DNA of 36,777 nt, taken from Acetobacteraceae bacterium (lineage in GTDB: Bacteria; Pseudomonadota; Alphaproteobacteria; Acetobacterales; Acetobacteraceae). Below the pieces are notes generated by a model. It had not been told where the DNA came from. It made no database searches and worked only from the letters and a program-made list of their open reading frames with translations. A program made the position numbers and the translations under genes. The stretch lies in NCBI GenBank assembly GCA_027488195.1, contig JAIYCD010000125.1:1-36777 (forward strand). Direction: 5' to 3'. Below are positions 5,986-36,777 of the stretch, in pieces. Within the stretch, counting starts at the first letter, position 1. Each line of letters opens with the position of its first letter.

Positions 5986-6416
5986 ACTGGGAGATCCTCG
6001 CCATCCTGGCCCTGGTACTGCTGGGGCTGGAGATGCTGACGCCCTTCACCGTCTTCCTGTGGATGGCGATCGGCGCGGCGGCGGCGGCGGGCGCCTCCTG
6101 GCACGGCATTGCCTGGCCTGGGCAGCTGGGCGTGTTCCTGCTCGGCGCCTCGGGCAGCATCGCCACCTATTTCCTGAAGCGGCCCAAGCCGCGCGGGCCG
6201 GACGTCTCTGCGCCGGGCGGCGTGCTGACGGGGCTGCAAGGCGTCGCCCTCGGCGAGCTTTCGCCCCAGGGCCGCGTGCAGGTGGCCGATGGCAGCTGGC
6301 ATGCACGGACGGCCGATGGTGGCACCATCGCCGATGGCGCCGCCATCGAGGTGACAGGTCATGATGGCGCGACGCTGCTCGTGCGCGCGCTGGAGAGGCC
6401 CCCTACCCCGCCGTAA
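5982..6416 (+). CDS. NfeD family membrane protein (short form)
   Basis: Partner of the upstream SPFH protein; 144 aa. Two or three hydrophobic segments occupy residues 1-65 (ILAILALVLLGLEMLTPFTV and following), then a C-terminal OB-fold domain starting near GLQGVALGELSPQGRVQVADG and ending with the usual VTGHDGATLLVRAL. It lacks the ClpP-like protease domain of long NfeD proteins. Its ATG overlaps the SPFH stop (ATGA), so the two are co-translated. The 3' end overlaps the convergent Bug gene by 14 bases. Confidence 0.9.
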   Translation: MNWEILAILALVLLGLEMLTPFTVFLWMAIGAAAAAGASWHGIAWPGQLGVFLLGASGSIATYFLKRPKPRGPDVSAPGGVLTGLQGVALGELSPQGRVQVADGSWHARTADGGTIADGAAIEVTGHDGATLLVRALERPPTPP

Positions 6417-7377
6417 TGCCAAGCGCGCGGATCATGCCGCCCACCTGCGCCACATCCCGCTGGACGAAAGCGGTGAATTCCGCGGGGGCCAGAGGCGTCG
6501 GCGCGATGGCATGCTCCAGCAGGCGCGGACGCACCTGATCGCTGCGCAGCGCCACCAGCGTCTCGGCATTCAGCCGCTCGACGATGGGGGATGGCAGATT
6601 GGCGGGCCCTGAGATGCCCACCCAGTTCAGCACGACCACCGTGGGGAAGCCCAGTTCCGGCATGGCGGGCAGGCCGGGCGCCATCGGGTTGCGCTCGGCC
6701 GCACTGACCGCAAGGCCACGCAGGCGGCCCGCCGCGAAATGCTCCAGATATTGCGGCATGGTGTCGAAGGCGAGCGGCACCTGGCCGTTCAGCAGGTCCG
6801 GCAGGAGGGGCGCGCTGCCGCGATAGGGCACATGGGTCAGTTCCACATTGGCCGCGCGCTGGAACATCTCGCCATAGATGTGGCCAACCGAGCCGGCGCC
6901 CGAGCTGCCGAAGCTGGGCGGGGTTCGCTGCGCGCGGATCCAGGTGATGAGGGAGGGCAGGTCCGTCGCGGGGATGAAGCGCGGATTGACCACGATCGCC
7001 GCCGGGGCGGCGCCGATATAGGTGATATGGGTGAAGCTGCGCACCGGATCATACCCGGCCTGCGGATAAAGCGGGGGCGAGGTCGTGATGGGCGCGGTGT
7101 TGGACAGGAACAGCGTGTAGCCATCGGCCGGCTGCTGCGCGACATGCAGGGCGGAGAGCGTGCCGCCCGCGCCGGGCCGGTTGTCCACCACGAAGCGCTG
7201 GTTGAAGGCGGCCGAGTAATGCTCGGCCAGAAGACGCGCCGTGATGTCCGAGGAACCGCCTGGCGGGAAGGAGACGACGATCCGCACCGGCCGCGTGGGC
7301 CAGACGGCCTGGGCGCGGGCCTGCACAGCGGGCAGGCAGAGCGGTGCCACGAGCAAGGGCAATTGACGACGACGCAT
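6403..7377 (-). CDS. Bug/TctC-family solute-binding receptor
   Basis: Periplasmic binding protein of the tripartite tricarboxylate transporter type, 324 aa. A signal peptide covers about residues 1-23 (MRRRQLPLLVAPLCLP, ending AQA). The family blocks are SFPPGGSSDITARLLAE, DNRPGAGGTLSALHVA, ADGYTLFLSN and HVPYRGSAPLLPDLL. The ATG at 7377 has GGAGG 8 bases upstream; an in-frame ATG at 7395 would place that site inside the gene, so it is rejected. It is the last gene of a minus-strand operon, 47 bases after the racemase-like gene. No TctA/TctB membrane genes are nearby. The ligand is unknown; the neighbours suggest a carboxylate. Confidence 0.92.
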   Translation of the reverse strand: MRRRQLPLLVAPLCLPAVQARAQAVWPTRPVRIVVSFPPGGSSDITARLLAEHYSAAFNQRFVVDNRPGAGGTLSALHVAQQPADGYTLFLSNTAPITTSPPLYPQAGYDPVRSFTHITYIGAAPAAIVVNPRFIPATDLPSLITWIRAQRTPPSFGSSGAGSVGHIYGEMFQRAANVELTHVPYRGSAPLLPDLLNGQVPLAFDTMPQYLEHFAAGRLRGLAVSAAERNPMAPGLPAMPELGFPTVVVLNWVGISGPANLPSPIVERLNAETLVALRSDQVRPRLLEHAIAPTPLAPAEFTAFVQRDVAQVGGMIRALGITAG

Positions 7378-7424
7378 GGGCCAAACCTCCATCAACGGAG
7401 GAGCCGTGCATCAATCATGCCGCA

Positions 7425-16816: not shown

Positions 16817-17788
16817 ATGGCCGACGACCCCCGCATGGACCCCGAGATGGCGGCCTTCACCGCCCATATGGCGACGCAGATGGCGGGCTACCCGCCCATC
16901 ATCCTGCCCAACCCGCCGCGCAGCGCCCCCTTCGATGAGCCGCGCCGGATCAATGACGGCCCGCAGGTGCCGCTCAGCGAAGGCGGCCCGGTCATGGCCG
17001 AGAGCCGCGACCTGCTGCTGCCCATCCGCGGGCGGCGCATGCAGGTGCGCTTCCATCGCCCGAGCAACGACCCGAACCTGCCCGTGCTCATCTACATGCA
17101 TGGCGGCGGCTGGGTCTGGGGCAGCATCGACACGCATGACCGGCTGATGCGCAGCTATGCGGCGGCCAGCGGCTGCGCCGTGCTGGGCCCCGACTACGCG
17201 CTGAGCCCCGAGGCGATCTTCCCGCAGGCGATCGAGGAGTGCCACGCCGTGCTGCGCCATGTGGCGACGCAGGGCGCGGAGCTGGGCCTGGACCCGAGCC
17301 GCATCATCCTCGGCGGGGACAGCGCAGGGGCGAACCTCGCATCCGGCCTCGCCCTGCTGAATGCCGAGCAGCCGGAGCCCATCCCGCTCGCCGGCCTGCT
17401 GCTGAACTATGGCGTCTTCGACCACAGGCTCGACACCTCGAGCTACCAGGAGTTCGCCGATGGCTACGGACTGACCCTCGCCAAGATGCGCTTCTACTGG
17501 GACGCCTATTGCCCGGACCCGGTGGCCCGCGCCTCGGCCTTCGCCTCGCCCATGCGCGGCCCTCTCTCGGTGCTGCCGCCCACGCTGCTGCACATTGCGG
17601 AACTCGACGTGCTCTGCGCCGAGAACCTCGCCTTCGCGGAGAAGCTGCGCGCGGCCGGCGTGCCGCTGGAGACCGAGCTGTTCCGCGGCACGGTGCACGG
17701 TTTTCTGCGTGCGCTCGGCCGGGTGGGGGCGGCGGATCGCGCCGTGGAACTGGCGGGCGCCTGGCTGAAGGCGCGCTTCAGCCGGTGA
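16817..17788 (+). CDS. Alpha/beta hydrolase, HSL-type esterase
   Basis: Carboxylesterase of the hormone-sensitive-lipase family, 323 aa, no signal peptide (cytoplasmic). The oxyanion-hole motif is HGGGW at 95-99, the nucleophile is S169 in GGDSAGANLA, and the acid and base are D264 (AELDVL) and H294 (GTVHGF). A cap-like N-terminal helix region lies at 1-45. AGAGGAAG lies upstream of the ATG. It is the last gene of the plus-strand run and its end overlaps the convergent Bug gene by 11 bases. Substrate unknown. Confidence 0.92.
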   Translation: MADDPRMDPEMAAFTAHMATQMAGYPPIILPNPPRSAPFDEPRRINDGPQVPLSEGGPVMAESRDLLLPIRGRRMQVRFHRPSNDPNLPVLIYMHGGGWVWGSIDTHDRLMRSYAAASGCAVLGPDYALSPEAIFPQAIEECHAVLRHVATQGAELGLDPSRIILGGDSAGANLASGLALLNAEQPEPIPLAGLLLNYGVFDHRLDTSSYQEFADGYGLTLAKMRFYWDAYCPDPVARASAFASPMRGPLSVLPPTLLHIAELDVLCAENLAFAEKLRAAGVPLETELFRGTVHGFLRALGRVGAADRAVELAGAWLKARFSR

Positions 17789-18716
17789 TGTTCATGCGCC
17801 GGAGCAGCGGGCCCCAGCGCTCGCTCTCCGTCCGCAGGAAATTGGCGAATTCCTCCGGGCTGCTGCCGATGGCGAAGATCCCCTCGGCCAGCAGCCGCGC
17901 GCGGAAATCCTCGGTGCGGATGGCCTGCACCGCGGCCGCATTCACCCGCTGCACCATGGCGGTCGGGGTGCGGGCCGGGACCAGCAGGCCGAACCAGGTC
18001 TGCGCCACGGTGCCGGGGCGGAAATCGGCCACCAGCGGCACCTCCTCATTGCCCGGCATGCGGCGCTCACCCGTCCAGGCGAGGATGCGGCCCTGCCCCG
18101 CGCGGTGCATGGCAAGCCCCGTGCTGCCGCCCACCACCAGCAGGTCGAGCCGCCCGCCCAGAAAATCCGCGACCTGCGCGGCATCGCCGCGATAGGTAAC
18201 ATCCTGCATGCGGACGCCGAAGGCCTCGTTCACCAGCAGCATCGCGATGTTGTTGAAGCTCGAAGGCCCATTGGTGCCGTAGGTGATGGTGCCGGGCGCC
18301 GCCTGGGCCCGGGCCATCAGCACCTCCAGACTGGCGGCGCCGTCGGGGCGCGCCACGATGGCGAAGGGCAGCGTCGAGATCAGCGTGACCGGCGCGAAAT
18401 CCGCCTCCCGATAGGGAATGTTGCGGACGATGTGCGGGTTGATCGTCAGCGTGGAGCCCGAGGCGATCAGCACCGTGTGCCCATCGGCCGCCGAGCGCGC
18501 CACGAATTCGGCGCCGATCACGGTCGCCGCCCCCGGCCGGTTCTCGACCTGCACGGGCAGGCCGAGCGGGCCCGCCATGCGCTCAGCGAGGATGCGGGCG
18601 GTGACGTCGGTCGAGCCGCCGGGTGGGAAAGGCACGGTGATAGTCACCGGCCTCGCCTGGGCCAGAGCCGCGCCCGGCAGCAGCGCCGGCGCGGCCAGCA
18701 AGGCGCGGCGTTTCAC
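17778..18716 (-). CDS. Bug/TctC-family solute-binding receptor
   Basis: Periplasmic receptor of 312 aa. A signal peptide spans about residues 1-19 ([19 protein letters not shown], then Q). Family blocks are TVPFPPGGSTDVTARILAER, ENRPGAATVIGAEFVA, DGHTVLIASG, YGTNGPSSFNNIA and MQDVTYRGDAAQVADFL. The start is GTG, overlapping the stop of the upstream alcohol dehydrogenase gene (GTGA), so the two are co-translated. No TctAB permease is nearby. An alcohol or aldehyde-derived carboxylate would fit the neighbour but is not shown. Confidence 0.92.
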   Translation of the reverse strand: MKRRALLAAPALLPGAALAQARPVTITVPFPPGGSTDVTARILAERMAGPLGLPVQVENRPGAATVIGAEFVARSAADGHTVLIASGSTLTINPHIVRNIPYREADFAPVTLISTLPFAIVARPDGAASLEVLMARAQAAPGTITYGTNGPSSFNNIAMLLVNEAFGVRMQDVTYRGDAAQVADFLGGRLDLLVVGGSTGLAMHRAGQGRILAWTGERRMPGNEEVPLVADFRPGTVAQTWFGLLVPARTPTAMVQRVNAAAVQAIRTEDFRARLLAEGIFAIGSSPEEFANFLRTESERWGPLLRRMNITG

Positions 18717-19774
18717 GACGCCACCAGGATTGTGCGGCCGGTCACCTTGCCGTCGCGCAGGCGCATGAGCGCGGCATTGGCGTTCTCCTGCTTCTCCAGC
18801 GTGATGGGGATGCCCGGCACCTTCCCCTTCTGGGCCAGCGCTACCAGCGCCTTCAGCTCCTTCAGGCTGCCCACATAGCTGCCCTGGATGGTCAGCGCCT
18901 TGATCGGCATGAGCGGCAGCGGCACCCGCATCTCGCCGCCGAACAACCCCACCTGGATGAGCTTGCCGCCCTTGGCCAGCGCATCGAAGGCGGCCATGGC
19001 GGTCTTTGTGCCATTCACCAGATCAATGATGCCGAGAACCGGCCCGCCGCAGGCCTTCACGATGTGCTGCGCCGTGTCGCCACCGGCCAGCACGGTCTCG
19101 GTGGCACCCTGCACCTTCGCGGCCTCGAGCTTCGCCTCGTCCACATCCACGGCGCAGATGCGCTTGTGGCCCATCGCCTTCAGGATCGCGATGGCGTTCA
19201 GCCCAAGCCCGCCCGCGCCGATGATGACGATCGGGTCCGTCTTGCCGATGGGCTGGAGCTTGCGGATCGCCGAATAGACCGTGACGCCCGAGCAGGCATA
19301 GGTGGCGGCCAGCGCGGGATCGAGCCCGTCGATCGGCACCAGGTGCTTCCAATGCGTGGCCAAGACATGGGTGGCGTAGCCGCCATTCTGGTAGACGCCG
19401 AGCGCGCGGGGCTTCACCGCGCAAAGATTCTCCTCATCGGCCTTGCAGCGCGCGCAGGTGCCGCAGCCGACCCAGGGAAAGACAAGGCGGATCTGGCCCT
19501 TCTTCAGTCCCTGCCCTTTTGCCCCCGGCCCCCACTTCACCACCCGGCCCACGATCTCATGGCCCGGCGCCAGCGGCAGCTTCAGGCCGCGATCGGCCAT
19601 TCGCAGCTTGCCCCGCGTGCCGAGGTCATACTCGCCCTCCCAGATGTGCAGGTCCGAATGGCAGACGCCGGCATGGGTGACTTCAAGGAGCACCTCGTCC
19701 CCCTGCGGCTCGGGGGTGGGAAGCTCGATCTCCTGGAGCGGCTTGCCCAGCTCGGTGATGGCCCAGGCGCGCAT
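18713..19774 (-). CDS. Zinc-dependent alcohol dehydrogenase (MDR family)
   Basis: NAD(P)-dependent medium-chain dehydrogenase, 353 aa. Catalytic zinc ligands are C38 (GVCHSD), H72 with E73 (PGHE) and C161 (YACSGVTVYSA). The structural zinc cysteines C104, C107, C110 and C118 are all present, and the Rossmann motif is GAGGLG at 186-191 with the acidic D of VDVDEAK after it, favouring NAD. AGGGAGAGA precedes the ATG. First gene of a two-gene unit with the Bug receptor, divergent from the 19907 gene across 132 bases. Substrate is probably a primary alcohol or aldehyde. Confidence 0.93.
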   Translation of the reverse strand: MRAWAITELGKPLQEIELPTPEPQGDEVLLEVTHAGVCHSDLHIWEGEYDLGTRGKLRMADRGLKLPLAPGHEIVGRVVKWGPGAKGQGLKKGQIRLVFPWVGCGTCARCKADEENLCAVKPRALGVYQNGGYATHVLATHWKHLVPIDGLDPALAATYACSGVTVYSAIRKLQPIGKTDPIVIIGAGGLGLNAIAILKAMGHKRICAVDVDEAKLEAAKVQGATETVLAGGDTAQHIVKACGGPVLGIIDLVNGTKTAMAAFDALAKGGKLIQVGLFGGEMRVPLPLMPIKALTIQGSYVGSLKELKALVALAQKGKVPGIPITLEKQENANAALMRLRDGKVTGRTILVAS

Positions 19775-25055: not shown

Positions 25056-25115
25056 CAAGCTCCCGACAACGCCATGCCGGAGTAACCGGCAGGCCAATTT
25101 CAGGGAGGAATGACG

Positions 25116-26066
25116 ATGCGGCGAATCCTGCTGCTCATGCTCGCGCTCGCCGCACCAGCGGCCGCTCAGGACTATCCGACGCGGGATATCCGCTTCCTCA
25201 ACGCCTTCGCGCCCGGGGGCACGTCGGACCTCTTGGGGCGCGTGCTGGCCGAGCAGCTTTCCCAGCAGATGGGCCGGCGCGTGGTAGTGGATAACCGCAC
25301 GGGGGCCAGCGGCGCCATCGCGGCCGGCGAACTCGCCCGCGCCGCGCCCGATGGCTACACGCTGCTGCTCGTCTCGATGAGCATGATGGCCGTGCTGCCG
25401 CAGATGCAGCGCCTGCCCTATGACACCGACCGCGACATCACGCCCATCGTGAACGTCGCCAATGTCTACAACATCCTGGTGGCCTCGCCCGCCTCGGGCA
25501 TCCAGACCTGGCAGGATGTGCGGCGCATGGCGCAGGAGCGCCCCGGCGCCTTGCGCTGCGCGACCGTCGGCCCGGGTTCCAGCCAGCAATTATCCTGCGC
25601 GCTCTTCATGTCGCTCACCAACACGCGGCTGGAGCAGGTGGGCTATCGCGGCGGCGCGCCCGCCATCCTCGACATCGTGGCTGGCCGGGTCGAGGTGATG
25701 TGGGGCAACATGCCGGAATACCTGGCGCAGATCCGCGGCGGCGGCCTGCGCGCCATCGCCTATGGCGCGGCCAGCGCCTCGCCCCTGCTGCCGAACCTGC
25801 CGGTGATGTCGCAGGATGGGTTGCCCAATTTCGTCATTCCGAACTGGTTCGGCGTGGCGGGCCCGGGCGGCATGGCGCCGGCCCTGGTGCAGCGGATCAA
25901 TGCCGAGGTGAACCGCGCCATGATGGCGCCCGAGGTCCAGCGCCGCTTCGAGGAGAATGCGATGCTGCGGGTCGGCGGCACCCAGGCGGACATGGTCCGG
26001 CAGATCGGCCAGGACCGGGAGCGCTGGGGGGCCGTGATCCGCGACCACGACATCAAGCCGGAATAG
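25116..26066 (+). CDS. Bug/TctC-family solute-binding receptor
   Basis: Periplasmic receptor of 316 aa, with a signal peptide at residues 1-18 (MRRILLLMLALAAPAAAQ). Family blocks are FLNAFAPGGTSDLLGRVLAE, DNRTGASGAIAAGELA, PDGYTLLLVSMSMM and EQVGYRGGAPAILDIVAG. Two ATGs lie six bases apart; GGAGGA touches the first (25110) but sits 6 bases before the second (25116), so the second is the likely start. Probably co-transcribed with the enolase-superfamily gene. The TAG stop lies in one arm of a perfect hairpin shared with the convergent gene. Confidence 0.92.
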   Translation: MRRILLLMLALAAPAAAQDYPTRDIRFLNAFAPGGTSDLLGRVLAEQLSQQMGRRVVVDNRTGASGAIAAGELARAAPDGYTLLLVSMSMMAVLPQMQRLPYDTDRDITPIVNVANVYNILVASPASGIQTWQDVRRMAQERPGALRCATVGPGSSQQLSCALFMSLTNTRLEQVGYRGGAPAILDIVAGRVEVMWGNMPEYLAQIRGGGLRAIAYGAASASPLLPNLPVMSQDGLPNFVIPNWFGVAGPGGMAPALVQRINAEVNRAMMAPEVQRRFEENAMLRVGGTQADMVRQIGQDRERWGAVIRDHDIKPE

Positions 26067-28337: not shown

Positions 28338-29087
28338 ATGTGCGGCCGCTACGTCCTGCAGCGCGACCCGGCCGGCCTGGTTCGGTATTTCGGTGCCTCA
28401 CCGCCGGTGCCGAACCATCCGCCAAGCTGGAACATGGCGCCGACCCAGCAGAGCCTCGTACTGCGACGCAACCCGCAATCGGGCACCCGGCATCTGGACG
28501 TCCTGCGTTGGGGCCTCGTGCCCCGCTGGGCCAGGGATACCGCGGGCGGCGCGCGGCTGATCAATGCGCGGAGCGAGACGGTGCTCGAGAAGCCCAGCTT
28601 CCGCGACGCCTTCCGCAAGCGCCGCTGCCTCGTCCCCATGGATGCCTTCTACGAATGGGCGCAGGACTCCCAACCCAAGCAGCCCTTTGCCGTCGGCTTG
28701 CGCAGCGGTGCGCCCATGGCGGCGGCAGGACTCTGGGAGGGCTGGCAGCAGCCGGACGGCAACTGGCTCAGGACCTACAGCGTCATCACCTGCGCCTCAT
28801 CCGCGCGCCAGGCGGAGTTGCACCCGCGAATTCCCGCCTTCCTGGCGCCCGAGGAGTGGCCGGCCTGGCTGGGAGAGGTCGCAGCCGACGAAACGGCGCT
28901 GATGGGCCTCCTTCGGCCGATCAAGGATGGGGAATTGGCCTTCTGGCCCGTCGCGGCGCGTGTAGGGCGCGTCACGGAAAACGATGCAGGCTTGTTGAAA
29001 CCTGCCGCGGCCGAGGGATGGCCCGGCCTGCGAGACGCCCCACCCGATTGGGAGCGTCCGCTGGAAAATCCGGCACTGGCTTCCTGA
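28338..29087 (+). CDS. SRAP (YedK/HMCES) abasic-site processing protein
   Basis: SOS-response-associated peptidase family, 249 aa. It forms a covalent thiazolidine crosslink with abasic sites in single-stranded DNA through Cys2, exposed after removal of Met1. All hallmark residues are present: C2 (MCGRY), N76/R78/E80 (LINARSET), E106 (DAFYEWAQ) and H162 in LHPRIPAFL, where most members have HDRMP. No LexA box was recognised upstream; it probably shares the promoter of the small helical protein. GC content and codon use match the neighbours. Confidence 0.93.
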   Translation: MCGRYVLQRDPAGLVRYFGASPPVPNHPPSWNMAPTQQSLVLRRNPQSGTRHLDVLRWGLVPRWARDTAGGARLINARSETVLEKPSFRDAFRKRRCLVPMDAFYEWAQDSQPKQPFAVGLRSGAPMAAAGLWEGWQQPDGNWLRTYSVITCASSARQAELHPRIPAFLAPEEWPAWLGEVAADETALMGLLRPIKDGELAFWPVAARVGRVTENDAGLLKPAAAEGWPGLRDAPPDWERPLENPALAS

Positions 29088-29097
29088 GAAGGAGGCC
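29078..29097. terminator. Hairpin between convergent SRAP and dksA-like genes
   Basis: GGCTTCCT-GAGA-AGGAGGCC: an 8-bp stem with one G-T pair and a GNRA-type loop, overlapping the SRAP stop. Could act for both genes; no T-run. Confidence 0.45.
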
Positions 29098-29102
29098 GAG
29101 GA

Positions 29103-29519
29103 TCAATCGTCGCGGTGCACCTTCTCCATCCGCTCGTGGCGCTCCTGCGCCTCGATCGAGAGGGTGGCAATGGGGCGGGCTTCGAGGCGGCGCAGGCCGA
29201 TCGGCTCGAAAGTCTCCTCGCAGTAACCATAGGTGCCCTGGGCGATGCGCTCGATCGCCTGGTCGATCTTGCTGATCAGCTTGCGGGCGCGGTCGCGGGT
29301 GCGGAGTTCAAGGGCGCGGTCGGTCTCGACGCTTGCGCGGTCAGTCAGGTCGGCTTCGGTGATGCCCCCGGCGGAGAGGGAATTCAGAGTGGCACCCGCC
29401 TCGCGGAGCAGCTCGTGACGCCAGCGCAGCAACTTCTGGCGAAAATACTCCTGCTGCAAAGCATTCATGAACTCTTCGTCTTCTGATGGACGATAATCGG
29501 ACGGCAGGGTGACGACCAT
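29103..29519 (-). CDS. dksA: DksA/TraR-family RNA polymerase-binding regulator
   Basis: Transcription factor of 138 aa that enters the RNA polymerase secondary channel and acts with ppGpp. The N-terminus DYRPSEDEEFMNALQQEYFR and the coiled-coil tip DLTDRAS (D-x2-D-x-A, the functional aspartates) are conserved. The zinc-finger region is altered: E. coli has four cysteines, but here YCEETFEPIGLRRLEARP and ATLSIEAQERHER keep only one. I recall that zinc-less DksA forms are common in alphaproteobacteria. The ATG at 29519 matches the family N-terminus and has GGTGAGG upstream; the longer frame has no similarity. It neighbours fliX, as in Caulobacter-type genomes. Confidence 0.92.
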   Translation of the reverse strand: MVVTLPSDYRPSEDEEFMNALQQEYFRQKLLRWRHELLREAGATLNSLSAGGITEADLTDRASVETDRALELRTRDRARKLISKIDQAIERIAQGTYGYCEETFEPIGLRRLEARPIATLSIEAQERHERMEKVHRDD

Positions 29520-29669
29520 GAGTCTGTACCTCACCCCGTGGCGCGTCCGGCCCGACGCCAGATGCATTCCCGAGGCGTCCGGACCATATGCAAAGCCGCT
29601 CGCCGCGCCAAGGGGTGATTTGCCCCAGGTGCATGTCACGCTTCCGATTTCATAGGATTGTCCCCGGTT

Positions 29670-30086
29670 TCAGGCTCCGTGGCGGGTCAGCTCGACCCGC
29701 GCTCGCAATGAGATCGCCTGCATGATCTCACGCAAAGCGGGATCGGCCCCGGCTTCGCCCTCGGCCAGGAGCGCGAGTCGGGACAGGCGGGCCACGCTGA
29801 CCCCACCATCCAGCAGCGCCAGTTGCAGCGCGCCCAACTCGCCCAGCACAGCCTGCGCACGGCGCTGAGCTGCGGCATCGGCCTCCGCCGGGCTCCAGTC
29901 ATCCTGCAGGCCGAACATGGCTTGGGCCTGGGTGGTGGCGGAAGAGGCGGCGGTGCCGTGCGGAGCGCAGGCTTGTGGTCCCCCGGGCTGGGCTGTCCCT
30001 TCCGGCAAGATAAAGCCGGCTGGGCCGGTCCGGCGCGGCCGCGCCGTGGGGCCAGGCGCCTGAGGCAATCGGACCGGTGGCAGCAT
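29670..30086 (-). CDS. fliX: Flagellar assembly regulator FliX
   Basis: Class II flagellar regulator of 138 aa. In Caulobacter FliX couples completion of early flagellar structure to FlbD, the activator of sigma-54 promoters. The N-terminal half is low-complexity and Pro/Gly-rich (PPVRLPQAPGPTARP; PAGFILPEG). The conserved C-terminal domain starts at about residue 70 with AAAQRRAQAVLGELGALQLAL, continues with LDGGVSVARLSRLALL and ends ALREIMQAISLRARVELTR, the usual FliX finish. GGAAAGGGTGAAG precedes the ATG. Divergent from flgI, sharing a 189-base region with a sigma-54 promoter facing flgI. Confidence 0.88.
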   Translation of the reverse strand: MLPPVRLPQAPGPTARPRRTGPAGFILPEGTAQPGGPQACAPHGTAASSATTQAQAMFGLQDDWSPAEADAAAQRRAQAVLGELGALQLALLDGGVSVARLSRLALLAEGEAGADPALREIMQAISLRARVELTRHGA

Positions 30087-30150
30087 TCTTCACCCTTTCC
30101 TCATCACGGCGCTTTCTGCCGGGGCCTTGCGGCGGCCTCCGCCCCTCCCC

Positions 30151-30163
30151 GGCAGTTCCTGCC
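30151..30163. promoter_or_regulatory. Inverted repeat upstream of the flgI sigma-54 promoter (possible activator site)
   Basis: GGCAG-TTC-CTGCC, a perfect 5-bp dyad about 20 bases upstream of the -24 element, between fliX and flgI. Position and symmetry would suit an FlbD-type enhancer site, but I cannot verify the consensus. Confidence 0.35.
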
Positions 30164-30183
30164 ACCAGCGAGCGTCCCAGGGC

Positions 30184-30199
30184 TGGCACGGCGGTTGCC
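30184..30199 (+). promoter_or_regulatory. Sigma-54 (-24/-12) promoter for flgIJN
   Basis: TGGCACG-GCGG-TTGCC matches the sigma-54 consensus TGGCACG-N4-TTGCW in every fixed base except the last, with the required 10 bases between GG (-24) and GC (-12). It faces flgI, whose start lies about 77 bases downstream. Caulobacter-type late flagellar operons are sigma-54/FlbD dependent, and the regulator gene fliX is adjacent. Confidence 0.88.
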
Positions 30200-30275
30200 C
30201 ATGACCGCCAGGACGAACTGGTAATGACAGCAGCGCGGAGTGCCAGGAACAGTGGCGGCAATTCCTTTCGGCCGG

Positions 30276-31376
30276 ATGAACATGGCGGGGCTGGTGCTCG
30301 GACTGGGGCTGTTGCTCTGGCCTGCACTCGTGGGGGCACAGCCTGTCCGCATCAAGGATATCGCCGATGTCGAGGGCGTGCGCGACAACCAGCTGGTCGG
30401 CTACGGCCTCGTGGTTGGCCTCCCCGGCACGGGGGACCGCCTCCGAACGGCGATCTTCACCCGCCAGTCGCTGGTGGGCATGCTGGAGCGCCTTGGCGTC
30501 AACACGCGCGACAACGAGGCGCGGCTGGAGACGCGCAACATCGCGGCCGTCATGGTGACCGCGAACCTGCCCGCCTTTGCCCAGCCCGGCAGCCGGATCG
30601 ACGTTGCCGTCTCATCGCTGGGCGATGCGTCGAACCTGACCGGTGGCACGCTGCTGGTCACGCCCCTGCTCGGCGCCGACGGCGCGGTCTATGCCGTGGC
30701 CCAGGGCGCAGTCGCAACGGGCGCGATTGCCGCGCGGGGGGCTGGCGCCTCCATCGCGCGCGGCGTGCCAACCTCGGCGCGGATCTCCTCGGGCGCCATC
30801 GTCGAGCGCGCCATTCCCTATACCCTGGCCGGACGGGACCACATTCGCCTCGCGCTGCGCAACCCGGACTTCACCACGGCACAGCGCATCGCCGCCGCCA
30901 TCAATGGCCGCGGCGGCAACGTGGCGCGCGCGGTGGACCCGCGCACGGTCCTGCTCACGCTGGGCGGCCGCGACCCGATGAGCTTCATCACCCAGATCGA
31001 GCAGCTGCGCGTGATCCCCGACCAGGTGGCGCGCGTCATCATCGAGGAGGCGTCGGGCACCATCGTGATGGGCGAGCAGGTGCGCGTCTCCACCGTCGCC
31101 ATCGCGCAGGGCAACCTCACCATCCGCATCACCGAGACGCCGCAGGTCAGCCAGCCCAACGCCCTGGCCAATGGGGAGACGGTGGTGGTGCCGCGCACGC
31201 AGATCGAGGTGGATGACCAGGCGGAGCGCCGCATGGGCGTGCTGCGCGGCGGCGTCACCCTCAGCGAGCTGGTGCGCGGGCTGAACAGCCTCGGCGTCGG
31301 CCCGCGCGACCTGATCACCATCCTGCAGGCAATCAAGGCGGCGGGCGCGCTGCAGGCCGAACTGGAGGTCCGCTGA
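30276..31376 (+). CDS. flgI: Flagellar P-ring protein FlgI
   Basis: Periplasmic P-ring subunit of the flagellar basal body, 366 aa. A signal peptide (AGLVLGLGLLLWPALVGA, then QPV) precedes the family opening VRIKDIADVEGVRDNQLVGY and GLVVGLPGTGD. Further landmarks are NIAAVMVTANLPAFAQPGSR, IDVAVSSLGDASNLTGGTL and the C-terminal VVPRTQIEVDD plus LSELVRGLNSLGVGPRDLI. Start choice is uncertain: ATG 30276 is used, ATG 30282 is as good, and GTG 30240 would add a basic residue to the signal peptide; none has a clear ribosome-binding site. The stop overlaps the flgJ-like ATG (TGATG). Confidence 0.93.
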   Translation: MNMAGLVLGLGLLLWPALVGAQPVRIKDIADVEGVRDNQLVGYGLVVGLPGTGDRLRTAIFTRQSLVGMLERLGVNTRDNEARLETRNIAAVMVTANLPAFAQPGSRIDVAVSSLGDASNLTGGTLLVTPLLGADGAVYAVAQGAVATGAIAARGAGASIARGVPTSARISSGAIVERAIPYTLAGRDHIRLALRNPDFTTAQRIAAAINGRGGNVARAVDPRTVLLTLGGRDPMSFITQIEQLRVIPDQVARVIIEEASGTIVMGEQVRVSTVAIAQGNLTIRITETPQVSQPNALANGETVVVPRTQIEVDDQAERRMGVLRGGVTLSELVRGLNSLGVGPRDLITILQAIKAAGALQAELEVR

Positions 31377-31696
31377 TGATTCCCCTGAACACCCTCCCAC
31401 CCGCCGGCGGCGCACAGACGCCGGCCCGCATGCGCCAGACCGCCCAGGCCTTCGAGGCGCAGGTGCTGGCCCAGCTCATGCAGCCCGCCTTCGACACGGT
31501 GGACACGTCCAAATCCGCCTTCGGTGGTGGCTCGGCCGAGGCGCAGTGGCGCCCCATGCTGGTCGAGGCCTTCGCCGCCGGCGCCGCGCGTTCCGGCCAG
31601 GGCATCGGCATCCAGGACATGGTGCTGCGGCACATGCTCCGGCTGCAGGACCAGGCCCGAAATCCCATCCCACCTGAAGAGGAGACCCGCCCATGA
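31376..31696 (+). CDS. flgJ: Rod-binding protein, FlgJ N-terminal domain only
   Basis: Short FlgJ-type rod-assembly protein of 106 aa, corresponding to the rod-capping domain. The muramidase domain of enterobacterial FlgJ is absent, as usual in alphaproteobacteria, where the gene is also called cheL. The conserved stretch is RQTAQAFEAQVLAQLMQPAF, then FGGGSAEAQWRPMLVEAFA and a C-terminal GIGIQDMVLRHMLRLQ. One-base overlap with the flgI stop and ATGA overlap with the next gene show tight coupling. Confidence 0.88.
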   Translation: MIPLNTLPPAGGAQTPARMRQTAQAFEAQVLAQLMQPAFDTVDTSKSAFGGGSAEAQWRPMLVEAFAAGAARSGQGIGIQDMVLRHMLRLQDQARNPIPPEEETRP

Positions 31697-32094
31697 TGGA
31701 CGCCGTGATCGCCGCCGGAGAGCGCCTGGCCGAGGCGCTGCGCGCCGAAAACGAGGCCCTGGCCGCGCTGGACCTGACGCGCGCCGCAGCGCTGGCCACC
31801 CGCAAGATGCAGGCGACCGACGCCTTCGCCGCCGCCACAGCCGCCGCCACGCGCACGCAATCCCGCGCAGAGGGGCCGATGCGCGATGCGGCGGAGAATC
31901 TGGCGCTGAACCTTTCCAGCCTGGGGCAGGAAAACCGCAAGCTGCTGGAAGCGGCCATCGCCCTGCAATCCCGCGTGATCGAGACCATCGCCGGCGCCGC
32001 GCGCCCGCTCGCCGCCGCCCCGGGCTATGGGCGCGCGGGGCGGACGCGCCCACCCGTGCAGGCGGCCGCCATGGCGCTGGCCACGCGGGTCTGA
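31693..32094 (+). CDS. FlgN-like flagellar chaperone (FlbY-type)
   Basis: Helical protein of 133 aa with the FlgN layout: long amphipathic helices (VIAAGERLAEALRAENEALA; KMQATDAFAAATAAATRTQS; NRKLLEAAIALQSRVIETIA) and a Gly/Ala-rich tail (GYGRAGRTRPPVQAAAMALA). FlgN chaperones hook-associated proteins FlgK and FlgL; in Caulobacter the gene at this place is flbY. Similarity is weak at sequence level, so the call rests on helix pattern, length and position. ATG 31693 or 31696; GAGGAG lies about 8 bases upstream. Last gene of the flgI operon. Confidence 0.75.
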   Translation: MMDAVIAAGERLAEALRAENEALAALDLTRAAALATRKMQATDAFAAATAAATRTQSRAEGPMRDAAENLALNLSSLGQENRKLLEAAIALQSRVIETIAGAARPLAAAPGYGRAGRTRPPVQAAAMALATRV

Positions 32095-32139: not shown

Positions 32140-32880
32140 ATGGATGCCCCCCAGGACGACCCCGATTGGCAGGCGCTGCGCGAAGGGCGGGGCGGCAAGC
32201 TCGCGCCGCTTTTCGCGCCGCTGCTGGAAGCGCCGGCGGCTGGGATTGTCATAGGCCGCCTGGCGCAGACGCTGGATGGGCGGATCGCGACCCTTTCGGG
32301 CAACAGCAAATGGATCGGCGGCCCGGGCGACCTGCGGCACACGCACCGGCTGCGCGCACTCTGCGACGCCGTGATCGTGGGGGCCGGCACGGTGCGCGCC
32401 GATGACCCGCAACTGACCACGCGGCTGTGCAGCGGCGCCTCACCCGTGCGGGTGGTGCTGGATGCGGGGCGAAGGCTCGGCACGGATCATGGGCTGTTTC
32501 GCGAAGGCCCGGCCACGCTGCTGGCAACGGCCACTCCCGGTCCGGAGCGGCACGGCACGGCCGAGGCGCTGCTTGTCCCACGCGCGGAATTCGGCGGGCT
32601 CGACCTCGCGGCGCTGCTCGATGCCCTGGCCGCGCGGGGACTGACAAAAATCTTTGTGGAAGGCGGCGGGCAGACCGTCTCGGGCTTCCTTCGCGCCGGG
32701 CTGCTGGACCGGCTGCATGTGACGGTGGCGCCGATGATCCTGGGTTCCGGCCGGCCTGCCTTTGATTTGCCCGAAGTGGGGCGCATCGAACAGGGCATGC
32801 GCTTCGCCTGGACCGTCCACGACATCGCCCCCGATGTCCTCTTTGACATCGCCCTCGACCGGCGCGCGCCACATGAATGA
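32140..32880 (+). CDS. RibD C-terminal-domain (DHFR-like) reductase, standalone
   Basis: NADPH-dependent reductase fold of 246 aa, as in the reductase half of riboflavin-biosynthesis RibD; the deaminase half is absent. Family motifs are GRLAQTLDGRIATLSGNSKW (about 39-58), LRALCDAVIVGAGTVRADDP (NADPH site), VEGGGQTVSGFLRAGLLDRL and VTVAPMILGSG. A ~35-residue N-terminal extension precedes it. Standalone copies act on riboflavin precursors or on pterin-like rings; here the downstream genes form a tight cluster with a PTPS-fold protein, so a non-riboflavin substrate is plausible. First gene of the cluster, 45 bases after the flagellar operon. Its end overlaps the next gene by 8 bases. Confidence 0.88.
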   Translation: MDAPQDDPDWQALREGRGGKLAPLFAPLLEAPAAGIVIGRLAQTLDGRIATLSGNSKWIGGPGDLRHTHRLRALCDAVIVGAGTVRADDPQLTTRLCSGASPVRVVLDAGRRLGTDHGLFREGPATLLATATPGPERHGTAEALLVPRAEFGGLDLAALLDALAARGLTKIFVEGGGQTVSGFLRAGLLDRLHVTVAPMILGSGRPAFDLPEVGRIEQGMRFAWTVHDIAPDVLFDIALDRRAPHE

Positions 32881-33868
32881 CCGCCGCGAGACGATGGCGC
32901 GTGCCCTTTGGCACATGGCCCCTGGCAGGGCAGGGCTGCGCGAAGCACGCCTCGCCTTGCCGGCGGAGGGCGCGTTGCTGGTCCAGGCGCTGGCCTCCGG
33001 CGTCTCGCGCGGGACGGAGCGCCTCGTGCATCACGGCCGCGTCCCCGCCTCGCAGCACGCGGCCATGCGCTGCCCGATGCAGGAGGGCGACTTCACCTTC
33101 CCCGTGAAATACGGCTATGCGGCGGTGGGCCGCGTCGAGGAAGGGCCGACCGAATTTCTCGGCCGCCGCGTCTTCGCGCTTCATCCGCACCAGTCGCGCT
33201 TCGTCATCCCCGCCCATTTCTGCGCGCTGATCCCCGATGGCGTTAGCGATGCGCGGGCCTGCCTCGGCGCCAACATGGAAACCGCGCTCAATGTGATGTG
33301 GGATGCGACGCCCCGCCTCGGCGAACGCGCGCTGGTCATCGGCGCGGGCGTTGTCGGGCTGCTCTCTGCCTTCCTGCTCGCGCGCATCCCCGGTGTCGCG
33401 GTGACGGTGGTGGATCGTGACCCCGCGAAAGCGGTTCTGGCGCGTGGCTTCGGCGCGGATTTCGCCCCGCCGGAGGCGGCGCCGCGCGAGCAGGAACTCA
33501 TCATCCATGCCAGCGCCAGCGCGGCCGGGCTGCGCCTCGCCCTTGAATGCGCCGCCTTCGAGGGCCGCATCCTGGAGGCCAGCTGGTTCGGCGATGCCGA
33601 ACCCGCCTTGCCGCTCGGCGCCGAGTTCCACCAGAAACGGCTGCAGCTGCTCTCGACGCAGGTGGGCAGCGTCTCGCCCGCCATGCGCGGGCGGCGCAGC
33701 CATGGGCAGCGCATGGCCTTGGCCCTCGCGCTGCTGGAGGATGCGCGGCTGGACGCGCTGCTCGGCCCCTTCGTCGCCTTTGAAGACCTGCCTGACGCCT
33801 TACCTGCACTGTTGGACCCGCCGCCCGGCGCGCCGCAACCTCTTTGCCCCGTCATTCGCTACGCTTGA
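32873..33868 (+). CDS. MDR-family dehydrogenase lacking zinc ligands
   Basis: Medium-chain dehydrogenase/reductase of 331 aa. The Rossmann motif is GAGVVG (about 157-162) followed by VTVVDRDPAK, favouring NAD. The catalytic zinc site of ordinary members is gone: GVCGSD reads GVSRGTE (about 43-49), PGHE is replaced by VKYGYAAVG (78-86), and there is no structural Cys lobe. Other conserved-looking blocks are LHPHQSRFVIPAHF, ANMETALNVMWD and GAEFHQKRLQLLSTQVGSVS. I recall this SRGTE-type family beside PTPS homologues in other alphaproteobacteria (not verified). ATG 32873 overlaps the previous stop by 8 bases; ATG 32894 is an alternative. Confidence 0.85.
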   Translation: MNDRRETMARALWHMAPGRAGLREARLALPAEGALLVQALASGVSRGTERLVHHGRVPASQHAAMRCPMQEGDFTFPVKYGYAAVGRVEEGPTEFLGRRVFALHPHQSRFVIPAHFCALIPDGVSDARACLGANMETALNVMWDATPRLGERALVIGAGVVGLLSAFLLARIPGVAVTVVDRDPAKAVLARGFGADFAPPEAAPREQELIIHASASAAGLRLALECAAFEGRILEASWFGDAEPALPLGAEFHQKRLQLLSTQVGSVSPAMRGRRSHGQRMALALALLEDARLDALLGPFVAFEDLPDALPALLDPPPGAPQPLCPVIRYA

Positions 33869-33882
33869 AGGATACCCGCCCC

Positions 33883-34284
33883 ATGTTCAGCCTCACCGTC
33901 GTGGACCACATCATGGTCGCGCATTCCTTCCGTGGCGCGGAGTTCGGCCCGGCCCAGCGCCTGCATGGCGCAACCTTCGTGGTGGAGGCTGAGTTCCGCG
34001 CCCCCAAGCTCGATGACCTGCATCTCCTGATCGATATCGGCCTGGCCAAGGATGAGCTGCGCAACACCCTCAGCGCGCTCGACTACCGCAACCTGGACGA
34101 GGAGCCGGTCTTCGCCGGCAAGAACACGACGACCGAGTATCTCTGCCTGCATATCCATGGCCTGCTGGCCGCCGCCTGCCAGGATGGTCGGATGGGTCCG
34201 GGCGGGCCCGGTGTCAGCGCCATCAAGGTGCTGCTGCGCGAGAGCCACATCGCCTGGGCCGCCTTCGAGGGGCCCGTGAGGTAA
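33883..34284 (+). CDS. 6-pyruvoyl/6-carboxytetrahydropterin synthase-fold protein with altered active site
   Basis: Tunnelling-fold protein of 133 aa aligned by motif with QueD/PTPS. The scaffold is kept: H14 (VAHSF), LHGATF at 27-32, a LLIDIGLAKDEL strand, LDYRNLDEEP (66-75), TTTEYL with E85, and E120 (LLRESH). Against E. coli QueD the zinc triad H16/H31/H33 becomes H14/H28/A30, the catalytic Cys27 becomes Ala24, and catalytic Asp70-His71 becomes D67-Y68. Standard PTPS or QueD chemistry is therefore unlikely, though automatic annotation will call it 6-carboxytetrahydropterin synthase. GAAGGA precedes the ATG. It lies 14 bases after the MDR gene and 2 bases before the glycosyltransferase. Confidence 0.87.
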   Translation: MFSLTVVDHIMVAHSFRGAEFGPAQRLHGATFVVEAEFRAPKLDDLHLLIDIGLAKDELRNTLSALDYRNLDEEPVFAGKNTTTEYLCLHIHGLLAAACQDGRMGPGGPGVSAIKVLLRESHIAWAAFEGPVR

Positions 34285-34286
34285 CC

Positions 34287-35321
34287 ATGAGAATCGCGCT
34301 GCTCGTCCCCGGGCCATTCGAGACCGTCTCGGGCGGCTATCTCTATGACCGCCGAATGGCCGAGGGGCTGCGCGCCCTGGGGCACGCGGTGCGCGTGGTG
34401 GAACTCGAGGGCAGCTTTCCCATGCCGGATGACGCGGCGCAGGATTCCGCGCGCGCCGCCTGGGCAGGCCTGGCGGAGGGCGAGGTCGCGGTGATCGACG
34501 GCCTCGCCCTACCGGCCTTTCGCCCCTTGGCGCGGGAGCTTGCCGCGCGCTCGGCCGTGGGCCTGATCCATCACCCGACCTCGCTCGAGCCCGGCTCCTT
34601 CCAATCCGAGCTTGCGGCCCTGGAGCGCGCGGTCTTCGCCGCGTGCGGCCGCCTGGTCGCGACCTCGCCCTACACGGCGAAGGGGCTGCCGCCGCTGGGT
34701 GCGGAACCCTCGCGCATCGGCGTGGTCGAGCCAGGGACGGACCCGGCACCGCGCGCCACCGGCTCGGGCGGGCCCGGGGCGCGGATCCTGGCCGTGGGCT
34801 CGCTCATTCCGCGCAAGGGCCATGACGTGCTGCTGCGCGCGCTGGCCCGCCTCACCGATCTGGAATGGGCGCTGCGCATCGCCGGCCCCGCCGCCGATCC
34901 GGTGCATGCCGAGGGGCTCGGCGCCCTGGCCGAGGAGCTCGGTCTCACCCATCGCGTCACCTTCCTTGGCCCCGTGACGGATGCCGCGCTGGAAGCCGAA
35001 TACGCCGCGGCCGATCTCTTCGCGCTGGCCACCTGGTTCGAGGGCTATGGCATGGCGGCGGCCGAGGCGCAGGCGCGTGGCCTGCCGCTGATCCTGTGCA
35101 CCGGCGGCGCCATCGCCGAACTGGTCGGGCCGGGGGCCGCGATCCTGGCCGCACCCGGCGATGTGAACAGCCTGTCGCGCGGGATGCGCCGGCCGATCTA
35201 TGACGCTGCGCTGCGCGCCCAGATGGCGGAAGCCAGCTGGCTGGCCGGGCAATCCCTGCCCCGTTGGGAAGACCGCGCCGCGCGTTTCGCGGCCGAGCTG
35301 GAGGCCGCCGGCCATGGATGA
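34287..35321 (+). CDS. Glycosyltransferase family 4 (GT-B)
   Basis: Cytoplasmic retaining glycosyltransferase of 344 aa. The N-terminal acceptor domain opens LLVPGPFETVSGGYLYDRRM and ends near VATSPYTAKGL. The donor domain has the linker VVEPGTDPAP, ILAVGSLIPRKGHDVLLRAL and WFEGYGMAAAEAQARGLPLI, which carries the E-x7-E pair of GT4. No membrane segment or signal. It follows the PTPS-fold gene by 2 bases and overlaps the methyltransferase start by 8. In this context a small-molecule glycosylation is more likely than surface polysaccharide synthesis (inference). Confidence 0.92.
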   Translation: MRIALLVPGPFETVSGGYLYDRRMAEGLRALGHAVRVVELEGSFPMPDDAAQDSARAAWAGLAEGEVAVIDGLALPAFRPLARELAARSAVGLIHHPTSLEPGSFQSELAALERAVFAACGRLVATSPYTAKGLPPLGAEPSRIGVVEPGTDPAPRATGSGGPGARILAVGSLIPRKGHDVLLRALARLTDLEWALRIAGPAADPVHAEGLGALAEELGLTHRVTFLGPVTDAALEAEYAAADLFALATWFEGYGMAAAEAQARGLPLILCTGGAIAELVGPGAAILAAPGDVNSLSRGMRRPIYDAALRAQMAEASWLAGQSLPRWEDRAARFAAELEAAGHG

Positions 35322-36198
35322 CCCCACCGAGCAATTCGACGGCGACTGGCTCTCGCTCCGCGAGCCCTTCGATGCGCGCGCGCGGAACCCGGACATCGCC
35401 CGCGCGCTCATGGAGCATCTGGACGAGAAGGGCCGGCCCCGCTTGCTCGATATCGGTGCCGGCACGGGCAGCCTGACGCGCTGGCTCGGTCATTTCGTCG
35501 GCCGGGCGCATGCATGGGTGCTGGCTGATGCCGATGCGGAGCTCATGGCCCGCGCCTTCGACACGATGATGGATTCTGCCGAGGCCATCGGCTGGCGCGC
35601 CACCTGGCCGCAGCGCAAGGTGCTGCTGCTGCACCCGCCCGAAGGCGCCTGGCGGATCGAGGGCGTGCTGACCAACCTGGCCGAGGCGCCGGACGGACTG
35701 CCGCTCGAGAATGTGGATGCGGTGACCTGCAGCGCGCTTTGCGACCTCGTCTCTGAGGCCTGGCTGGTGCGTTTCGCGGCGGCCTTGGCCCGGCGGCGCC
35801 TACCCTTCTATGCGGCGCTGAACGTGACGGGGCGCGAGCGCTTCATGCCCCCCTGCCCCGGCGATGCGCTGGTGGCCCGCGGCTTTGCCCGTGACCAGCG
35901 CCGCGTAAAAGGCTTCGGCGGCATGGCGCTGGGTGCCGCGGCGACCGAGACCATCGCGCGGGTCTTTGCCGGCCATGGCTATCGGGTGCTGCGGGGCGCC
36001 AGCCCCTGGATCATTCCGCGCCAGGCGCGTGAGATGGCCCTGGAACTCGCCCTCGGCCATGCCGAGGCGGCGTTGCGGCATGAGCGCCGCGGGACCGCGC
36101 AGATCAACGCATGGGCCGAGATGCGGGCCGACCAGGCAGATGCTGGGCTGCTCTCGGCGCGGGTGGAGCACCAGGACATTCTCTGCCTGCCCGGATAG
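35314..36198 (+). CDS. Class I SAM-dependent methyltransferase
   Basis: Methyltransferase of 294 aa. SAM motif I is LLDIGAGTGSLTRWL (about 43-57), with the acidic motif VLADADAELMARAF next and VDAVTCSALCDLVSEAWL as motif IV. An unusual feature is a long C-terminal half with a Pro-rich loop (FMPPCPGDALVARGF) and a final helix-rich segment GTAQINAWAEMRADQADAGL. It ends the five-gene cluster; the ATG at 35314 overlaps the glycosyltransferase stop (ATGGATGA). The substrate is probably the product of the same pathway. Confidence 0.88.
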   Translation: MDDPTEQFDGDWLSLREPFDARARNPDIARALMEHLDEKGRPRLLDIGAGTGSLTRWLGHFVGRAHAWVLADADAELMARAFDTMMDSAEAIGWRATWPQRKVLLLHPPEGAWRIEGVLTNLAEAPDGLPLENVDAVTCSALCDLVSEAWLVRFAAALARRRLPFYAALNVTGRERFMPPCPGDALVARGFARDQRRVKGFGGMALGAAATETIARVFAGHGYRVLRGASPWIIPRQAREMALELALGHAEAALRHERRGTAQINAWAEMRADQADAGLLSARVEHQDILCLPG

Positions 36199-36230: not shown

Positions 36231-36258
36231 TTGTAAATGGGCAATTGCCCGGTATCTG
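36231..36258 (+). promoter_or_regulatory. Palindrome and weak promoter-like site upstream of urtA
   Basis: Perfect 12-bp palindrome GGGCAATTGCCC (36239-36250) lying between TTGTAA (36231-36236) and TATCTG (36253-36258), 16 bases apart. It could be an operator inside a weak promoter of the urea-transport genes, in the AT-richer 166-base gap before urtA. Speculative. Confidence 0.35.
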
Positions 36259-36364
36259 CACGGACAATTGGCATTGCGCTGCCTCCACTGGCGTTTTCTC
36301 TCCATGGCTTCATGTGCAGGACATGGAATTGGCGAGGCGGGCCTCACTAGGTTCTGGCCGTCTC

Positions 36365-36777
36365 ATGTCCCTGGAGGATGCTTTGTCCAAGTCCTTGCCC
36401 CCCATCTCCCGCCGCGCCCTGCTGGCCGCTCCCTTGGCCGGGGCCTTGGCCGCGCCCGCCATCGGCCAGACCGCGCCGATCCGGGTGGGCGTGCTGCACT
36501 CCCTCTCCGGCACCATGGCCATCTCCGAGACCGCGCTGCGCGACACCGCGCTGATGATGATCGAATGGCAGAATGCCCGCGGCGGCCTGCTCGGCCGGCG
36601 CCTGGAAGCCGTGGTGGTGGACCCCGCCTCCAACTGGCCGCTCTTCGCCGAGAAAGCGCGCGAGCTTCTCGCCGTCTCCCGCGTGGATGTCACCTTCGGC
36701 TGCTGGACCTCGGTCTCCCGCAAGTCGGTGCTGCCGGTCTTCGAGGAGCTGAACGGCCTGCTCTTCTACCCCGTCCA
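36365..36777 (+). CDS. urtA: Urea ABC transporter substrate-binding protein (3' end cut off)
   Basis: Periplasmic urea receptor; 137 codons are present before the window ends. A twin-arginine-like leader ([18 protein letters not shown]) precedes [18 protein letters not shown], then [20 protein letters not shown] and [20 protein letters not shown], which are near-identical to the UrtA signature and clearly different from amide or branched-chain amino acid receptors. ATG 36365 is the longest start, but TTG 36383 has GGAGG exactly 5 bases upstream and is the better initiation site. urtBCDE would be expected beyond the right edge. Confidence 0.93.

Follow-up and report, generated by a model that had tools for sequence, protein, structure and literature searches.

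A five-gene block and its recurrence in distant bacteria

The stretch of DNA analysed here, referred to as the window, is a whole contig of 36777 bases (G000:C22) from an Acetobacteraceae genome assembly of 4.57 Mb that is 88% complete and 6% contaminated, and the view of the neighbourhood ends at position 36777. Toward this end lie five closely spaced plus-strand genes that encode a reductase, a dehydrogenase, a PTPS-fold protein, a glycosyltransferase and a methyltransferase (Table 1), with intergenic spacing of -8, +14, +2 and -8 bases from the first gene to the fifth. The open reading frame (ORF) coordinates confirmed the two 8-base overlaps and the gaps of 14 and 2 bases given in a preliminary description of this DNA. 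Its family assignments were also borne out, by Pfam for the standalone RibD-type reductase (with no deaminase domain reported), the PTPS fold and the GT4 glycosyltransferase, by alignment with a zinc alcohol dehydrogenase of the same window for the zinc-less MDR enzyme, and by fold matches of the predicted structure for the class I methyltransferase. The MDR gene was taken to start at an ATG inside a longer listed TTG ORF. Pfam matches of the MDR enzyme and the methyltransferase all fell below the cut-offs; no NCBIfam model reached its cut-off with any of the five proteins, and the methyltransferase had no NCBIfam match at all.

Table 1. Genes of the five-gene block in the window
Feature	Position	Strand	Length	Evidence
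Standalone RibD_C-type reductase	32140-32880	+	246 aa	Pfam RibD_C 7.1e-43
MDR dehydrogenase without zinc ligands	32873-33868	+	331 aa	Alignment and structure model
PTPS-fold protein, SCO6650 subfamily	33883-34284	+	133 aa	Pfam PTPS 1.5e-19
GT4-family glycosyltransferase	34287-35321	+	344 aa	Pfam Glycos_transf_1 1.1e-25
Class I methyltransferase	35314-36198	+	294 aa	Model fold; weak sub-cut-off Pfam matches

Searched with the PTPS-fold protein, 71 of the 150 family genomes gave a match, the window's own included; 67 of these were strong (2e-29 or better) and 4 weak. With the corresponding profile, matches came from 54 of 337 class genomes (40 strong, at 3.9e-41 or better, again including the window's own) and from 106 of 349 phylum genomes (22 strong, at 9.9e-52 or better, with the next match at 2.9e-15). 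A broad contig scan with the same protein found relatives in at least 571 of 595 stretches, and the best 80 were kept; among these, Roseococcus, Falsiroseomonas and Roseomonas came first, followed mostly by Actinomycetota and by some Acidobacteria, Gemmatimonadota and Pseudomonadota. Forty family stretches were taken, 35 of them around strong matches and 5 around weak ones, and stretches at 34 of the 39 remaining strong matches in the class were added. Neighbourhoods were compared in four sets: A, 35 Acetobacteraceae loci; B, 34 loci from other alphaproteobacterial families; C, 49 Acetobacteraceae-like loci of the best 80, partly from the same genomes as set A and in some cases clipped by contig ends; and D, the other 31 of the best 80, comprising by title 21 Actinomycetota, 5 Pseudomonadota, 3 Acidobacteria and 2 Gemmatimonadota. 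Sets C and D were divided by locus number. In GC-rich DNA, simple gene calling often picked shadow ORFs. Counts are profile matches, with profiles trained on part of the same loci, within 4.5 kb for the MDR, GT4 and methyltransferase families and within 9 kb for all others.

The order MDR, PTPS, GT4 on one strand was found at 33/35 loci of set A, 31/34 of set B, 43/49 of set C and 29/31 of set D, and a methyltransferase gene came next at 23/35, 29/34, 36/49 and 27/31 loci, respectively. A RibD-type gene lay nearby at 33/35, 26/34, 45/49 and 17/31 loci. Five control loci with weakly similar PTPS-family genes (L057-L061) had no MDR or RibD match. Conserved co-localisation, proposed in the preliminary description as a check on the cluster, thus holds in Alphaproteobacteria and beyond. 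Since the gene order recurs in distant taxa, the grouping is more than chance, and the five genes are part of a gene set that is kept together in very distant bacteria.

Several further families accompany the cluster outside the window's own family. GTP cyclohydrolase II (GCHII) was found nearby at 12/34 loci of set B and 22/31 of set D, a creatininase-family protein at 6/34 and 15/31, a CDP-alcohol phosphotransferase at 10/34 and 25/31, and an FkbM methyltransferase at 6/34 and 4/31; a membrane protein of the LPG_synthase_TM type was found at 0/34 and 24/31. None of these five families was found near the cluster in set A (0/35 each) or set C (0/49 each). Pfam searches of ten representatives confirmed these additional families. 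In two alphaproteobacterial genomes of about 1.6 and 1.4 Mb (L188 and L189), creatininase, MDR, PTPS, GT4, methyltransferase, RibD and GCHII genes lie side by side. A divergent version of the cluster, with RibD on the opposite strand and no methyltransferase found, is present at L051-L053. An FkbM-type methyltransferase stands near the extended cluster at L122, L131, L141 and L145, in Acidobacteria, Gemmatimonadota and a gammaproteobacterium. The idea that the CDP-alcohol phosphotransferase is an overlooked sixth member of the cluster in the window's family was set aside, as its matches, in 76 of 80 genomes with a best value of 1.6e-9 (2.5e-6 in the window's own genome), were read as generic.

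Elsewhere in the window, SRAP, DksA, FlgI and FlgJ/FlgN-like genes lie upstream of the cluster at 28338-32094, and this block is also upstream in part of the Acetobacteraceae loci. Downstream, at 36245-36777, the contig end cuts a gene read by eye as an ABC-transporter substrate-binding protein. Three ORFs at 6403-7395, 17778-18716 and 25110-26066 were read by eye as periplasmic binding proteins of the Bug/TctC type.

Residue patterns of the encoded enzymes

The nearest solved chain to the PTPS-fold protein is 3d7j, SCO6650 of Streptomyces coelicolor (4e-43, with the next chain at 0.12; 4.6e-57 with the profile). Residues 1-129 align to 3d7j, which carries the same AQRLHGA motif, placing the window protein in the SCO6650 subfamily. 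SCO6650 itself reportedly lacks both zinc and PTPS activity and has a pterin-like pocket. The motif AQxxHGA was present in 139 of 150 loci, counted over sets A, B, C and D, which overlap in genomes; the remaining 11 had ARxxHGA (3), AHxxHGE (2), AQxxHGC (2) or one of four singletons. The catalytic Cys or Glu that precedes the HGH motif in QueD and PTPS (the PTPS-III motif being ExxHGH) is accordingly replaced by Ala-Gln in 139/150 loci, and the three zinc histidines are incomplete, with HGA in place of HGH, although the first is kept as AHS in 148/150. In a profile alignment with the solved PTPS chain 2g64, Ala takes the place of Cys, HGA that of HGH and Tyr that of the His that follows Asp. 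A comparison with an approximate QueD sequence agreed in the motif, with the first His aligned by eye only. The late Glu was invariant in 13 aligned sequences.

The reductase scored 145.0 of the 150.15 bits needed for NCBIfam ribD_Cterm, and its nearest solved chain, 6p8c (2.1e-26), is named as a reductase of 2,5-diamino-6-ribosylamino-4(3H)-pyrimidinone 5'-phosphate (DARoPP). PMC3631187 describes a Lys of bacterial RibD/G (Lys151 of Bacillus subtilis RibG) that favours the deaminated intermediate AROPP; fungi have Thr and archaea Asn at this position, and both reduce DARoPP. The same paper reports that the T35K substitution in yeast RIB7 gave an enzyme that used AROPP about threefold better than DARoPP. 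Among 122 cluster rows, the Lys151 column held Arg in 71, His in 21, Gln in 19, Ser in 9, Leu in 1 and a gap in 1, so that none of the 121 rows with a letter had Lys; the window residue is Arg. Bifunctional RibDs had Lys in 18/18 cases and cluster reductases Arg in 11/11 (gene found in 29 of 30 loci, 21 genomes). The Asp199 and Glu290 positions were kept in every row with a letter, and Arg206 in all but one. The reference sequences used for this numbering were approximate; the genome's own canonical RibD, on contig C48, gives the same column. The window reductase thus lacks both the deaminase domain and the Lys151 of bifunctional riboflavin RibD. It has the RibD_C domain and catalytic residues of the RIB7/RED type and likewise no Lys151, with Arg rather than Thr or Asn at that position. 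From these patterns, its predicted substrate is DARoPP, which it would reduce without loss of the 2-amino group.

Alignment of the MDR enzyme with the window's zinc alcohol dehydrogenase (18713-19774, minus strand), with ligands assigned by eye, placed SGVS against AGVC and KYGYA against PGHEI and revealed no structural-zinc loop; the features of a zinc-dependent alcohol dehydrogenase are therefore lacking. The nearest solved sequences were a ketose reductase (5.1e-8) and a sorbitol dehydrogenase (4.6e-6), both matched in the nucleotide-binding part only. Structure matches of its model (pLDDT 94.5) were numerous among MDR alcohol dehydrogenases and included polyol enzymes; the enzyme is predicted to oxidise a secondary alcohol. 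Its best NCBIfam match was the BchC model TIGR01202 (2.5e-14), and assignment as BchC was rejected at a score of 53.1 of 291.25 bits, far below the cut-off.

The glycosyltransferase was nearest to the solved chains 3c48 (3.8e-15), which we take to be MshA, placing it presumably closest to MshA-like glycosyltransferases, and 7qsg (1.2e-12), an inositol-phosphate glycosyltransferase. The methyltransferase model (pLDDT 96.8) matched the methyltransferase fold; as for the MDR model, the structure search returned generic family matches, and neither sequence nor fold searches of the methyltransferase indicated an acceptor. An anti-phage role was set aside, the methyltransferase having a single weak PADLOC match (mad2, 7.2e-9).

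GTP cyclohydrolase II, the proposed front end

GCHII was present at 35 loci, of which L182 was set aside for a gap at the Tyr column. A local RibD accompanied 23/23 GCHII proteins with Tyr and 1/11 with Met or His; a creatininase accompanied 6/23 and 11/11, respectively. The 11 Met/His loci all come from actinomycetes; in that group the Tyr type occurs at 7 loci, each from Micromonospora or Actinoplanes, so that this pattern may reflect relatedness. Five actinomycete genomes, four of them with the Met/His type, contain 11 to 28 RibD_C genes each, and the RibD absent from the Met/His loci may thus be supplied elsewhere in the genome. A Streptomyces GCHII, SCO6655, is said to stop at the formyl intermediate. 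According to PMC9478397, the creatininase-family protein BrbF deformylates AFRPP to DARoPP.

In the window's own genome, GCHII matches were found on contig C308 and on contig C48, where visual inspection indicates the riboflavin operon. In long alignments, the protein from C308 shares 29 to 52% identity with GCHII proteins linked to the cluster in other Alphaproteobacteria and, given this similarity, could serve both the riboflavin and the cluster routes. As a separate observation, the GCHII part of the operon-borne RibBA on C48 (L158:2117-3241) looks degenerate, and the C308 RibA looks intact. The genome has three creatininases; the two that were scored against the cluster profile reached 162 and 134 bits, and no clear orthologue of the cluster type was recognised among them. 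Two of the three creatininase-family genes, on contigs C225 (L159:8956-11327) and C246 (L160:6844-14066), lie beside genes that by eye resemble photolyase/cryptochrome genes.

Proposed pathway and related systems

Collectively, the linkage across taxa, the GCHII context in relatives, the lost QueD/PTPS residues and the lost riboflavin-specific Lys support a GTP-derived pathway that would be neither queuosine nor plain riboflavin synthesis. The residue patterns argue against QueD, PTPS and riboflavin roles; the preliminary description had proposed a product that is not queuosine, folate or riboflavin. Ring-opened GTP is the probable starting material of the gene set, and the end product would bear a sugar and a methyl group. 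The more specific claim, that the five genes form the core of a single biosynthetic route branching from GTP ring opening along the scheme set out below, is in our judgement evenly poised between true and false, and we hypothesise that the product carries a pterin ring. The substrates, the reactions of the MDR and PTPS-fold proteins, the sequence of steps and the product are all inferred.

In the proposed scheme, GCHII, joined in some bacteria by a creatininase-family formamidase, would supply DARoPP; in the window's genome, the unlinked GCHII on C308 would be the source. The branch would leave the riboflavin route before deamination, with the RibD-like reductase converting DARoPP directly to the ribityl compound DARIPP and the 2-amino group, which riboflavin synthesis removes, being kept. 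The zinc-less MDR enzyme would then oxidise a secondary alcohol of the ribityl chain, and the PTPS fold would keep the 2-amino-4-oxo ring in place as the chain ketone and the 5-amino group join to form a pterin-like bicycle. Reaction of a 2'-ketone with the 5-amino group would yield a 6-substituted dihydropterin, the same ring that GTP cyclohydrolase I forms via an Amadori rearrangement. Finally, glycosylation by the GT4 enzyme and methylation by the methyltransferase would complete the product. The chain is the simplest that uses every enzyme, and we infer its last four steps (MDR, PTPS fold, GT4, methyltransferase) and their order.

Several observations weigh against this scheme. L054 has the PTPS gene alone, a methyltransferase was not found at 12/35 Acetobacteraceae loci, and elsewhere the set exceeds the five genes of the preliminary description. 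A GTP origin gains support from the GCHII and creatininase genes at many related loci, but these genes, like the CDP-alcohol phosphotransferase and LPG-type genes, were not found near the cluster in the window's own family. The specificity residue of the reductase is mostly Arg, which is basic like Lys and unlike fungal Thr or archaeal Asn, and the similarity of the MDR enzyme to polyol enzymes is weak and confined to the nucleotide-binding part. Last, the Tyr/creatininase pattern is confounded by relatedness, and Met/His GCHII loci mostly lack a local RibD, so that the reductase step is not always linked.

A GTP-derived branch might instead end in a monocyclic product, a decorated ribosyl- or ribityl-aminopyrimidine, an outcome we consider possible but doubtful. 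The PTPS fold would then only bind or protect the pyrimidine, and the MDR enzyme would have as its target either the chain or the sugar that GT4 attaches, a division of roles we hold to be equally uncertain. Known catalytic residues are absent from the PTPS-fold protein, so ring chemistry is not indicated, and no cluster gene proves a bicycle; yet a zinc-less PTPS fold occupies the same place in distant taxa with its late Glu invariant, which weakly suggests a pterin-like ligand. It is improbable that the cluster serves riboflavin or deazaflavin synthesis as a side branch or back-up, leading to a modified flavin precursor or flavin analogue. The RibD-type reductase, GCHII and creatininase-family formamidase are indeed known from riboflavin synthesis (PMC9478397), but the genome has a separate riboflavin operon (read by eye on C48), the reductase lacks the Lys for the deaminated intermediate, and neither lumazine nor riboflavin synthase was a recurrent neighbour at 35 loci. 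A divergent queuosine or biopterin function, with the PTPS gene standing in for QueD or PTPS, is very unlikely: the gene is the sole PF01242 match in the genome, but at 88% completeness a second PTPS-family gene may be unseen, the Cys and the third zinc His are absent, and the protein scored 37.5 of 89.25 bits with the QueD NCBIfam model. Least credible is that the genes are neighbours merely through inheritance beside flagellar genes with no common pathway, as FlgI lies within the stretch taken at only 17/35 Acetobacteraceae loci, and, L054 apart, the genes stay together at the 18 FlgI-free loci as well as in other families and phyla, so that the neighbourhood counts already contradict it.

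If the GTP branch leads to a pterin, the cluster would represent a widespread second bacterial route to this ring without GTP cyclohydrolase I, built from GCHII (with a formamidase where needed), a 2-amino-keeping reductase, a zinc-less ribityl dehydrogenase and metal-free closure on a PTPS fold, then glycosylation and methylation to a cofactor or signal. We regard this extended claim as speculative and rather unlikely in full; if true, the route persists even at genome sizes of about 1.4 and 1.6 Mb. That an orphan pathway retains a single gene order in several phyla, and in two small genomes as well, suggests a metabolite or cofactor of wide use. The cluster provides a setting for SCO6650, a PTPS homologue of solved structure with no assigned function, and possibly also for the Streptomyces GCHII that reportedly stops at the formyl intermediate. 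On this view, genes of the subfamily that bear QueD/PTPS or RibD names would be misnamed, and every proposed step is a prediction open to assay. No description of the pathway was found in the open papers searched; many subscription papers lay outside the search, so this is no proof of absence.

Among known systems, the closest is SCO6650 (3d7j), the PTPS homologue of no assigned function that shares a subfamily with the window protein. The related Streptomyces loci L136, L142, L144 and L149 have the same MDR-PTPS-GT4-methyltransferase order as the window but differ in carrying a CDP-alcohol phosphotransferase, the LPG type, a creatininase and a Met-type GCHII, and in lacking a local RibD. QueD and PTPS (COG0720) share the fold family and the late Glu with the window protein but have CxxxHGH or ExxHGH where it has AQxxHGA, and it falls below the QueD cut-off. 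The window reductase has RibD_C, Asp199 and Glu290 in common with archaeal and fungal DARoPP reductases (RIB7/RED) and with the bacterial RibD reductase domain, but is without the deaminase domain and Lys151, and its family has Arg, His, Gln or Ser rather than Thr or Asn. BchC dehydrogenase gave the best NCBIfam match of the MDR enzyme, yet at a score that does not admit it to that family. BrbF of Sinorhizobium and relatives belongs to the creatininase family, as do the genes that adjoin GCHII or RibD at many related loci; no creatininase was found near the cluster in the window's family. Bacterial pterin glycosides such as cyanopterin and limipterin resemble the product proposed here in being glycosylated and derived from GTP.

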